Assembly: GCA_002288455.1 (NCBI GenBank)
Contig: NEUS01000028.1
Coordinates: 1-36,719 of the forward strand
Origin: Opitutia bacterium Tous-C1TDCM
Lineage (GTDB): Bacteria; Verrucomicrobiota; Verrucomicrobiia; Opitutales; Opitutaceae
Direction: 5' to 3'
Length of the DNA: 36,719 bases
Below the pieces are notes generated by a model. It was not told the origin of the DNA. It saw only the letters and a program-made list of their open reading frames with translations, and made no database searches. Of the stretch, positions 28,420 to 33,028 are shown piece after piece (positions within the stretch are counted from its first letter, which is position 1; each line of letters starts with the position of its first letter). Made by a program: the position numbers and the translations under genes.

Positions 28420-29799
28420 ATGTCGAAGTCGCCCCTCGCCGGAATCACTTTGCTGCTCCTCGAAGACGAGGTGCTGTTGCGCAAACGCCTGGCCGCTTAC
28501 CTCGAGCGCGAAGGCGCGGAAGTGACGACCGTGGCCAACGTCGGGGCCGCGCGCACGGCGTTGGGCAATCTGGCGTTCGACGCGGCGGTGATCGACGTGA
28601 ATTTGCCCGACGGCCGCGGGACCGATCTGCTCCGCGACAAGTGTTTCCCGCCGACCACGACCGTGATCGTGATGACGGCGGAAGGCGGCGTGTCCGGCGC
28701 GATCGAGGCGCTGCGGGCCGGGGCGGCGGATTATCTGGTGAAGCCGTTTTCGCCGGACGAACTGCCCGTGCGGCTGACGCAGGCGCGCAAGGTGCGGCAG
28801 GCGAAGCGGGCGGACGAGTTCCGCCGCGGCCAGGAAAACGAACTCGTTTTCGGCCCGAGCCTCGCGGGGGTGCGCGACCAGTTGGCCAAGATCACGGCGG
28901 CGGACCGGCGGCTCACCGGTTACCTGCCGCCCGTGCTGATCGAGGGCGAGACCGGCACCGGCAAGACCGCGATCGCGCGTTGGATCCACCGCAACGGCCC
29001 GCGCGCGGAAGAGGCGCTCGTGGAGCTCAACTGTTCGGCGCTGCCCGATGCGTTGGCGGAGGCGGAGCTCTTCGGGCATGAGCGCGGGGCGTTCACGGAC
29101 GCGAAGGCCGCCCGGATCGGCCTGATGGAAGCGGCGGACGGCGGTTCGCTGTTTCTCGACGAATTGCCGAGCCTCGCCCTGCCGTTGCAGGCCAAGCTGC
29201 TGACCGCGATCGAGGACCACAGCCTGCGCCGGGTCGGGGCGTCGCGCGCGACCCCGGTCGACGCGCGCATCATCGCCGCGACCAACGCCGACCTGGGCCA
29301 GCTCGTGCGCGAGGGAAAATTCCGCGAGGATCTGCTGCACCGGCTGGATTTGTTCCGCGTGCGGCTGCCGCCGTTGCGGGAACGCGGCCAGGATATCGTG
29401 GTGCTGGCGGAGGAATTGCTGGGGCGCGTGTGCCGGCGCTACGGGCAAAAACCGACGCCGATTCCGGCGGCCGGTCGCGAGCGCCTGCTGGCGTATCGCT
29501 GGCCCGGCAACGTCCGCGAACTCGCCCACGAGATTGAGCGCGCGGTCGTCTTCGGCGGCGAAAAAGGCTTGGCCTTCGCGCACCTCGAGGCGGCGGCCGG
29601 CGGGGCGGCCGGCATCAGTCTGGTCCGGCCGGGGTTCGCGTTTCCCGAGGCCGGGTTTTCGCTCGAAGGCACGATCGACGAAATCGTGGGCTTGGCGCTG
29701 AAGCAGGCGGATGGAAACGTCTCGGCGGCGGCGCGGCTGCTGGGGGTTTCGCGCGACGTCGTTCGCTACCGCCTCAAGGGCGGCAAGGAGAACGAGTAA
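28420..29799 (+). CDS. NtrC-type sigma-54-dependent response regulator
   Basis: A 459-residue two-component activator. Receiver domain: residues 8-125, LLLLEDEVLL with the acidic pair, phospho-acceptor D59 (AVIDVNLPDG), conserved Thr in VMTAEGG, and K108 in YLVKPF. AAA+ domain: Walker A GETGTGKT at 176-183, Walker B GGSLFLDE (D247, E248), sensor IIAATNADL, arginine-finger region REDLLHRLDLFRVRLPPLRER. The sigma-54 contact loop reads GAFTDA (223-228) instead of GAFTGA. The C-terminal Fis-type HTH is at about 425-455 (NVSAAARLLGVSRDVVRYRLK). It activates transcription from sigma-54 promoters after phosphorylation. A good such promoter lies 127 bases after its own stop, and a histidine kinase gene lies 1.8 kb further on. 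GCACACTGCG precedes the ATG by 7 bases, as before priA. Confidence 0.93.
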   Translation: MSKSPLAGITLLLLEDEVLLRKRLAAYLEREGAEVTTVANVGAARTALGNLAFDAAVIDVNLPDGRGTDLLRDKCFPPTTTVIVMTAEGGVSGAIEALRAGAADYLVKPFSPDELPVRLTQARKVRQAKRADEFRRGQENELVFGPSLAGVRDQLAKITAADRRLTGYLPPVLIEGETGTGKTAIARWIHRNGPRAEEALVELNCSALPDALAEAELFGHERGAFTDAKAARIGLMEAADGGSLFLDELPSLALPLQAKLLTAIEDHSLRRVGASRATPVDARIIAATNADLGQLVREGKFREDLLHRLDLFRVRLPPLRERGQDIVVLAEELLGRVCRRYGQKPTPIPAAGRERLLAYRWPGNVRELAHEIERAVVFGGEKGLAFAHLEAAAGGAAGISLVRPGFAFPEAGFSLEGTIDEIVGLALKQADGNVSAAARLLGVSRDVVRYRLKGGKENE

Positions 29800-29819
29800 G
29801 GTGGGGAGGACGACGCGGC

Positions 29820-29875
29820 CGGGTCGGGCGATTGGGAAAAAATCCCCAGCCCTGCGGTTGCTCGGCGCCGACCCG
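29820..29875. promoter_or_regulatory. Inverted repeat CGGGTCGG...CCGACCCG upstream of the sigma-54 promoter
   Basis: CGGGTCGG at 29820-29827 and CCGACCCG at 29868-29875 are perfect inverted copies, 40 bases apart, ending about 50 bases before the -24 box. They could be half-sites of an upstream activator sequence for the response regulator or the ends of a weak stem after its stop codon. A small GGGA-A5-TCCC hairpin lies between them. Confidence 0.35.
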
Positions 29876-31611: not shown

Positions 31612-31627
31612 GGCGGTCCGTCCCGCC

Positions 31628-33028
31628 ATGCCCCTTCCCGCCGCCCCGTCGTCCCTCGTTCGCCTCGCCCCGGCGGGCGTGCTCGCGCTGACGGTGGCCG
31701 TTTTCGCGGCGGTGGTCGCGACGGTCACGTGGCAGCTGCGCGCGGGGCTGCGGGAGCAGATTTTCCAACGGGAGGCGCGGACCTTGGCCGCGGTCGCGTC
31801 GATGCAACTCGACAATCGGGCCGGCGAGTTGACCGGCGTCCGCCTGGAGGACGCGCCCGGCGCCTTGCTCGTGGCGGTGCTCAAGACCTCGCAGCTCCGC
31901 GGCGTTTCCGGCGTCCGGATCTTCGACGGGCAAGGCCGGCTTTCCGATGCGTGGCCCTTCCGCTGGACCGAAACTCCGCCGCCCGCGGCACTGTGGGCGC
32001 AATTGGCCCGCGGCGAGGCGAGCGGGCGTTGGCACGAGGACGAATCCGGCGAGAGTCTGCTCGGCCTGGCGGAACCGGCGCCGGGCACGGCGGCCCTCGA
32101 GGCCTGGGTGCCGCTGCGGCGGAACGAAGGCGGCGGCCTGCTGGGCGTCGCGCAATTTGTCGTCGAAGGCGGGCAGCTGGCGGCCGATCTCGAGGCGCAC
32201 GACGTGCGGCTTTGGACGCAGGCGATGCTCGCGTGGGCCGTGGGCTCGGCGGTGATCGTGTTTGCCGTGGGCTCGACCTTGCGGCGGTTGGCGGCGGCGA
32301 ACCGCGCGCTGCAGGCCCAGAGCGAAGATCTGTTGCGGGCGAACCGCGAGTTGGTGCTGGCGGCAAAGACGTCGGCCCTCGGCACGGTGACCGCGCACCT
32401 GATGCACGAACTGAAGAATCCGCTCGCCGGCCTCGAAATCCTCGTGGCCGGGCAAGGCGGAGATGGCGCCGGCCGCAGCGAAACGGGCGGCGAGTTGGCG
32501 GCGGCGTCGGCGCTGACGCGCCGGCTGCGGACGATGGTCAACGACGTGGTGGGCGTGCTGCGCGACGAGCAGGGCGGCGCCGCCTTCGAGTTGACGGCGG
32601 CCGAGGTGGCGGAGATCGCGGCCGCCAAAGTGCGGGGCGAGGCGGCGCAGCGCGGGGTCAGATTCACGGCAAGTGCGCCGGAGGGGCTCTTGGTGTCGGG
32701 TCGCCGCGGCAATCTGGCGACCTTGGTGCTGCGCAATCTGCTGCAGAATGCGTTGGAGGCGACGCCGGCGGGCGGGGCGGTGGTGTTGACGGCCGGGCCA
32801 AGCGCCGCAGGCGGGATCGCCTTTGAGGTGTCCGACACGGGGACCGGTTTGCCCGAGGTCGTGCGGAATCGGCTCTTCGAGCCGTGCACCAGCACGAAGG
32901 CCGGCGGCACCGGCGTCGGACTGGCGCTGAGTTTCCAGCTCGCGCAGCAGGCGGGCGGGACGCTGGAACTGGTCCGCAGCGATGCGGGCGGGACGAGCTT
33001 CCGCCTTGTGTTGGCTCCGGAGGCATGA
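31628..33028 (+). CDS. Sensor histidine kinase, membrane-bound
   Basis: A 466-residue two-component kinase. Transmembrane helix 1 at about 14-36 (LAPAGVLALTVAVFAAVVAT), an extracytoplasmic domain of about 160 residues (40-198), and helix 2 at about 199-218 (AMLAWAVGSAVIVFAVGSTL). A coiled coil follows, then the HisKA-like dimerisation helix with AHLMHELKNPLAGLE; the phospho-acceptor is H260. The catalytic ATPase domain includes NLLQNALEATPAGG (N box), EVSDTGTGLP (G1), LFEPCTSTKAGGTGVGLAL (F and G2 boxes) and LELVRSDAGGTSFRLVL. All core residues are present. Kinases of this type with ELKNPL commonly pair with NtrC-type regulators. The regulator at 28420 is the nearest candidate partner, with the sigma-54 promoter between them. 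Ligand unknown. Confidence 0.92.
   Translation: MPLPAAPSSLVRLAPAGVLALTVAVFAAVVATVTWQLRAGLREQIFQREARTLAAVASMQLDNRAGELTGVRLEDAPGALLVAVLKTSQLRGVSGVRIFDGQGRLSDAWPFRWTETPPPAALWAQLARGEASGRWHEDESGESLLGLAEPAPGTAALEAWVPLRRNEGGGLLGVAQFVVEGGQLAADLEAHDVRLWTQAMLAWAVGSAVIVFAVGSTLRRLAAANRALQAQSEDLLRANRELVLAAKTSALGTVTAHLMHELKNPLAGLEILVAGQGGDGAGRSETGGELAAASALTRRLRTMVNDVVGVLRDEQGGAAFELTAAEVAEIAAAKVRGEAAQRGVRFTASAPEGLLVSGRRGNLATLVLRNLLQNALEATPAGGAVVLTAGPSAAGGIAFEVSDTGTGLPEVVRNRLFEPCTSTKAGGTGVGLALSFQLAQQAGGTLELVRSDAGGTSFRLVLAPEA

Follow-up and report, generated by a model that had tools for sequence, protein, structure and literature searches.

Genes and features of the locus

Envelope stress signalling is known mostly from Proteobacteria. 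We analysed a 36,719-nucleotide stretch of DNA, here called the window, from Opitutia bacterium Tous-C1TDCM, a member of the Opitutaceae in the Verrucomicrobiota (contig NEUS01000028.1 of assembly GCA_002288455.1). A preliminary description, made from the sequence alone, had pointed to a possible envelope-sensing circuit in it, consisting of an NtrC-type regulator, a sigma-54 promoter, a small exported helical gene with its own terminator, a candidate outer-membrane barrel and a membrane histidine kinase. Reading frames and Pfam matches agree with these genes, their coordinates and the 16-base gap between the barrel and kinase genes. The parts listed were thus right, but the set lacked two members, a beta-propeller gene (33089-35089) and an inverted repeat (29833-29848). 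The features are as follows.

28420..29799, + strand: NtrC-type response regulator with receiver, AAA+ sigma-54 activator and Fis-type helix-turn-helix (HTH) domains; ATG at 28420, stop at 29799
29831..29850, no strand: inverted repeat ATTGGG-N8-CCCAGC, probable upstream activator site (UAS), centred 85 bp upstream of the -24 T
29926-29941, + strand: predicted sigma-54 promoter TGGCACGGGGGCTGCA, with a predicted start near 29952
29958-30308, + strand: small exported helix-rich protein, predicted; 116 amino acids (aa), no Cys, basic C-terminus
30342-30376, + strand: intrinsic terminator after the small gene, 16-pair stem and T-rich tail
30409-31611, + strand: predicted outer-membrane barrel-like protein; start codon uncertain
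31628-33028, + strand: membrane histidine kinase with HATPase_c, beginning 16 bases past the barrel stop
33089-35089, + strand: exported beta-propeller with PQQ/BamB-like repeats (Pfam), fifth member of the module

A predicted sigma-54 promoter and inverted repeat precede the small gene

The -24/-12 box is not rare when two mismatches are allowed, with 10 matches in the window and 11.4 expected. The stricter form TTGGCAYN6TGCA matches only twice in the 4.15 Mb of the source genome (85.8% complete), and the reversed-pattern control gave 0 matches. We scored boxes with a simple weighted consensus (maximum, 15; strong, 13.5 or more) at 63 loci, comprising the window, 22 loci from its genus and 40 wider loci. 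We kept the 50 loci that showed the regulator, barrel, kinase and propeller in this order and set aside 13 with one of these missing or cut off. The preliminary description had staked the promoter on its conservation in relatives, and the gap between the regulator and the small gene holds a box scoring at least 13.5 in 50/50 loci and at least 14 in 46/50. A profile of the small protein matches between regulator and barrel in 48 of these 50 loci; in the other two (L145 and L146), the gap was taken up to the barrel instead. In shuffled gaps, a score of 13.5 was reached in 56 of 5,000 cases (1.1%) and a score of 14 in 16 of 5,000. The 200-bp stretches preceding the barrel, kinase, propeller and regulator matches contain no box of 13.5 or more (0/50 for each). 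Since the box is conserved in relatives (50/50 loci), we rejected a chance match as its explanation. Among the loci set aside, seven carry a box of 13.0 to 15.0 (L109, L116, L117, L120, L122, L139 and L144). The other six (L132, L134, L135, L136, L141 and L142) reach only 10.0 to 12.0 and show no regulator in the fetched stretch, some of which end at a contig end.

We also found an inverted repeat upstream of the box, with the core TGGGN8CCCA at 29833-29848 (TGGGAAAAAATCCCCA). When the search was left free over 200 bp, the best 16-mer repeat was centred 82 to 86 bp upstream of the -24 T in 47/55 loci. The distance from the regulator stop to the box ranges from 87 to 864 bp, while the spacing from repeat to box is near-constant. 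Because of this near-constant position relative to the box, the TTGGG-N8-CCCAA repeat is a probable activator-binding site. The arms of the repeat read CGGG/CCCG in several loci, most of them from one genus.

The other TTGGCAYN6TGCA match in the source genome (G000:C70:25675-25691) lies after a different NtrC-type regulator and before another gene; the best repeat at that site has 6/8 core bases and stands at 100 bp.

The small gene encodes a conserved protein with its own terminator

Export and helix content of the small protein were judged from hydropathy and composition, not structure. An N-terminal hydrophobic stretch is present in all 13 proteins of the small-protein alignment A6. Nonsynonymous divergence (dN) was below synonymous divergence (dS) in 4/4 pairs tested, with a dN of 0.12 and a dS of 0.49 against the copy at L152. 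By this measure, the small gene is a real protein gene under purifying selection. The preliminary description recognised no family motif in the protein, and we likewise found no Pfam or NCBIfam family at E≤0.001. At E≤1, the window protein matches 13 families, among them OmpH (Skp-like) at an E value of 0.062, below the cut-off; neither Spy/LTXXQ nor a heavy-metal-sensor family is among the 13. The other 22 members likewise show no Spy or metal-sensor family in the 25 shown of their 94 matched families. Membership of the Spy, LTXXQ, Skp/OmpH or metal-sensor families was thus considered and rejected, OmpH being below cut-off and the others not among the matches listed. Comparison with solved structures gave no credible relative (best E, 0.11).

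The predicted start, 12 bases past the -12 C, leaves a leader of 6 nucleotides (nt) ahead of the ATG at 29958. In 21/23 genus loci, the first in-frame start from the predicted +1 onwards lies no more than 14 nt away and is sometimes a GTG at +1 itself; the exceptions are L044 (43 nt) and L046 (23 nt). Leaders of about 40 nt occur in five loci of another genus. The strong terminator named at the outset after the small gene has a 16-pair stem in the window, and a terminator-like hairpin with a T-rich tail lies 3' of the small gene in 37 of 48 loci, compared to 2.1 expected from shuffles.

The module is conserved in the genus and rearranged in more distant relatives

A search of 57 genomes with the small protein matched 21, all from the genus of the window (21/27 inside it, 0/30 outside). 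The order that the preliminary description proposed to look for in relatives (regulator, small gene, barrel, kinase) was found in 22/22 genus loci fetched, and in each of them it continues on the same strand into the propeller gene, which adjoins the kinase. These 22 loci come from 20 other genomes, two of which carry two copies each: G018 (L045 and L046) and G020 (L042 and L044) hold two paralogous whole modules, each with its own box and small gene.

Farther afield, the small-protein profile matched in 39/200 family genomes (12/49 genera) and the barrel profile in 63/200 (19/49 genera, weak matches included). A broader barrel profile matched 22/288 genomes of the phylum, eight of them weakly (E value of 1e-5 or worse). 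Of 80 loci from relatives, 24 were examined for the module. Relatives include metagenome-assembled genomes (MAGs) of Opitutaceae and of other Verrucomicrobia and, farther away, a MAG from the Limisphaerales and Pontiella sulfatireligans F21(T), assigned to Kiritimatiellota in the NCBI taxonomy. Two small-protein matches stand in tandem in L108, L143 and L144.

Three loci, L158, L159 and L169 (the last from Pontiella), have the order regulator, barrel, kinase, box, small helical open reading frame (ORF) and propeller-like ORF. In these loci, the box and repeat stand directly before the small ORF rather than after the regulator; the repeat centres lie 79 to 80 bp from the box, and a further repeat occurs at 113 bp. 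We judged these small ORFs equivalent to the small gene by position and composition only. The comparison supports the view that the box and the small helical gene stay paired when the gene order changes. L134 and L135 have the small gene, barrel and propeller but neither regulator, kinase nor box. The genome from which L134 comes (G004) is 95% complete and lacks an ortholog of the regulator, the best match being 36% identical, and the L135 genome also holds a full module elsewhere (L115).

Two other arrangements were seen. Between the regulator and barrel of L167, tandem boxes at 2802 and 3877 each precede their own exported-looking helical or low-complexity ORF. At L157:12925, a box precedes a 1,452-aa ORF downstream of module-like genes, a candidate further target.

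An unlinked 66-aa protein is a probable further target

The preliminary description suggested that the small gene is the dedicated output. No other gene at the locus stands behind a strong box, but the same element also precedes an unlinked gene. Repeat and box together occur at one other place in the source genome (G000:C84:68853-68961), with both patterns used. This second element lies 15 bases before an ORF of 66 aa (MQTPF...LFSLERRRQRMREFL; L249:5785-5985, minus strand), and the ORF and its repeat-plus-box element are conserved in the genus. The ORF is present in 12 of 16 fetched stretches and absent from 4, these stretches having been picked by eye, for AT-rich spacers, from the matches of a loose-pattern scan. 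In a protein search of 200 family genomes, the 66-aa protein was found in 6; all six carry the module and belong to this genus, of which 11 genomes were among those searched. Two new loci found for it carry boxes of 13.5 (L296) and only 11.5 (L297), both with a 7/8 repeat at 85 to 87 bp. In 3/3 pairs of the 66-aa gene, dN is below dS. The protein was searched against Pfam only and has no credible match, with one weak match in 1/11 members. We conclude from these comparisons that the regulator probably also switches on this unlinked protein in this genus.

The genome scans for the element varied in how far they rose above background. The loose repeat-plus-box scan of 27 genus genomes gave mostly noise, with controls similarly numerous in many genomes, and 2 matches versus 1 control in the source genome. 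A stricter pattern, which misses loci with CGGG-N8-CCCG repeats, gave 59 listed matches versus 28 for the reversed control in 200 family genomes and 2 versus 0 in the source genome. The pattern scanned for in seven distant genomes matched in five of them and had no match in the genomes of L157 and L167. The L161 genome has a single match, on an unexamined stretch, versus 1 control match. In the 7.4 Mb of Pontiella, this last pattern was found twice (control, 0), both times inside the module: once before the small ORF and once before an exported DUF2202 protein (L169:6692-7309) just upstream of the regulator. We found no paper on DUF2202 in the open-licence full-text literature.

Interpretation of the module and comparison with known systems

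We consider it likely that these five genes form an envelope signalling module that is conserved in Verrucomicrobiota and near relatives, with the small protein as its sigma-54-driven output. The part of the circuit that lies in the DNA (repeat, box and small gene) is well supported by the comparison of loci, while the sensor role of kinase and barrel and the effector role of the small protein are what we infer. Because the conserved box and repeat precede the small gene, also where gene order differs, and because two loci without regulator and kinase lack the box, the small gene is probably a dedicated output, though not the sole one. We pair the kinase with the regulator because of their constant neighbourhood. 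In the mechanism we propose, the kinase, with two transmembrane (TM) segments, would read a periplasmic condition, probably with the barrel and beta-propeller encoded alongside, and would phosphorylate the NtrC-type regulator. The regulator would then bind TTGGG-N8-CCCAA about 84 bp upstream of the near-consensus box, and its AAA+ domain would open the promoter together with RpoN. The small exported helix-rich protein would be made, mostly from a unit with its own terminator, and would serve as the dedicated output in the envelope. Most likely it would be a factor that protects or damps the barrel, propeller or kinase, comparable to ZraP or CpxP. Comparison alone is enough to locate the promoter, activator site and output gene, which makes the circuit directly testable in bacteria that have been little studied; one relative is in a named strain, Pontiella sulfatireligans. 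The module also offers a first functional context for protein groups without a named family, namely the small helix, the barrel and the 66-aa protein.

Several observations weigh against this interpretation. The loci are related, so they are not independent samples, and L109 and L122 carry a box with no regulator detected in the fetched stretch. The best repeat lies outside 82 to 86 bp in 8/55 loci, its best scores are tied in several loci, and many of its single-locus shuffle values are not small. The small-protein profile does not match the small ORFs of L158, L159 and L169, and no known chaperone family claims the small protein. The small gene looks nearly leaderless in this genus, and its terminator was not found in 11/48 loci. 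Finally, assignment of the barrel rests on weak matches, the barrel protein of the window having DUF481 as its sole Pfam match (E=1e-4).

A credible but less probable alternative is that the small protein is mainly a CpxP-like negative-feedback part of the sensor, binding the kinase sensor region and having no protective role. This would suit a locus in which only the small gene stands behind a strong box and in which its profile matches in nearly all loci that have the other four genes (48/50). However, L134 and L135 keep the small gene, barrel and propeller without kinase and regulator, and the tandem small-protein matches in L108, L143 and L144 suit an abundant product. Because the L134 and L135 copies persist without a kinase, the small protein may do more than feedback. 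CpxR is an OmpR-type regulator and is not known to be sigma-54-dependent. In CpxPAR and Spy, as in the proposed circuit, a small periplasmic protein is strongly made upon activation, and CpxP is thought to damp its kinase (PMC6737893, in excerpt); unlike them, the window protein has no Spy-like family match.

We hold as tentative a broader version of the proposed module, an envelope stress response of very small, monocistronic proteins across Verrucomicrobiota and near relatives, in which the exported helix would join barrel and propeller in a trans-envelope complex and, in this genus, the unlinked 66-aa protein would be co-switched with it by a single two-component sigma-54 pair through TTGGGN8CCCAA.

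By design, the nearest known system is ZraPSR; by the layout of its regulatory DNA, it is PrsK/PrsR; in neither case do the proteins reach the family score thresholds. ZraPSR of E. coli and Salmonella likewise combines a membrane kinase, an NtrC-type regulator and an RpoN-dependent small exported protein, the last of these assigned here by conservation and hydropathy. In the excerpt of PMC4987338, ZraP is a zinc-dependent periplasmic chaperone, and a title cited there calls it a repressor of ZraSR. In contrast to that system, the window regulator scores 243.5 bits (ZraR cut-off, 760) and the kinase 77.6 bits (ZraS cut-off, 479), the small protein has no Spy-like family match at E≤1, and the module has a different gene order plus a barrel and a propeller. 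In addition, zraP is divergent from zraSR, which itself lies behind a sigma-54 promoter (PMC4987338, in the same excerpt), whereas the module genes here are on one strand and, in 50/50 loci, the 200 bp preceding the regulator and kinase matches hold no box of 13.5 or more.

It is improbable that the module is a branch of PEP-CTERM/exosortase regulation by PrsK-PrsR, controlling exopolysaccharide-linked surface proteins, although several features are shared. The kinase has its best NCBIfam match in PrsK (83.4 bits), PrsR is among the matches of the regulator (270.5 bits), and one of 21 barrels matches TIGR03016, a PEP-CTERM-associated outer-membrane protein. The available part of PMC1569441 describes, for Prs, a kinase and an NtrC-like regulator with an activator motif, a spacer and a sigma-54 motif before mostly single-gene operons for exported products, a regulatory-DNA layout identical to the one found here. 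However, both matches are far under the equivalog cut-offs (300 bits for TIGR02916 and 502.6 bits for TIGR02915), and no tetratricopeptide-repeat (TPR) protein such as PrsT is among the five module genes. The small helix-rich protein that would be the output here matches no NCBIfam family at E≤0.001, so it does not qualify as a PEP-CTERM target, and the excerpt of Table 1 in PMC1569441 gives no PrsK/PrsR for Verrucomicrobium spinosum. As for the module itself, the available part of a sigma-54 regulon survey from 2025 that covers Opitutia (PMC12316311) mentions no such module, and searches of open-licence full-text papers yielded no account of a system of this kind in Verrucomicrobiota.

We give very little credence to the idea that the short transcript is a regulatory RNA with a conserved terminator and an incidental ORF; the unit is short, has a very brief leader and in most loci ends in a terminator, but its reading frame, signal sequence and protein sequence are conserved between genera, with dN well below dS in all four pairs. 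Slimmer still is the chance that the -24/-12 match is accidental and that the small gene is transcribed from a housekeeping promoter, since, common as loose versions of the box are by chance, a strong box occurs in every one of the 50 loci versus 1.1% of shuffles, the repeat keeps a near-constant distance, the box moves and vanishes with the regulator, and a simple scan of 28300-33200, which is weak evidence in this phylum, found no sigma-70-like site.

Regulator, barrel, kinase, propeller and neighbouring genes

Pfam finds Response_reg, Sigma54_activat and HTH_8 in the regulator. Its GAFTGA loop reads GAFTDA in 54/55 loci and GSFTDA in 1/55. Because the excerpt of PMC4641369 counts GAFTDA among the variants said to retain activity, we do not regard this loop as a defect; the regulator thus has both the Sigma54_activat domain and a functional loop variant, as a sigma-54 activator should. 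It is 59 to 95% identical to 21 other genus-level proteins in an alignment that excludes L030. In a search of nine genomes at E≤1e-60, its orthologs are 60 to 100% identical to the window protein, and other NtrC-type proteins are at most 44% identical. The source genome has one RpoN match. The regulator gene of L030 (6413-7792) has an in-frame stop after 104 codons, either a sequencing error or a sign of a pseudogene.

Among 21 barrel members including that of the window, DUF481 matched in 7, and TIGR03016, YaiO, Omp85 and OMP_b-brl matched in 1 each. Comparison of the barrel with solved structures gave only short weak matches to MtrB/TRAP and lysenin, which we rejected as not credible. Pfam recognises HATPase_c in the kinase, with HisKA appearing only below the cut-off. 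Hydropathy predicts two TM segments, starting near residues 8 and 195, the second being under threshold in 6 of 23 aligned kinases; a Pfam scan of the sensor region between them found no family. The C-terminal part of the propeller has no Pfam match, and another match to this part lies in the window at 11798-12601 (minus strand).

At L030:4824-6356, 5' of the regulator, we observed an ECF-like sigma factor (Pfam), a short TM protein and a membrane-anchored helical exported protein. Upstream genes of this type occur in 15 of the 23 genus loci compared, and the window carries sulfatase genes there instead.

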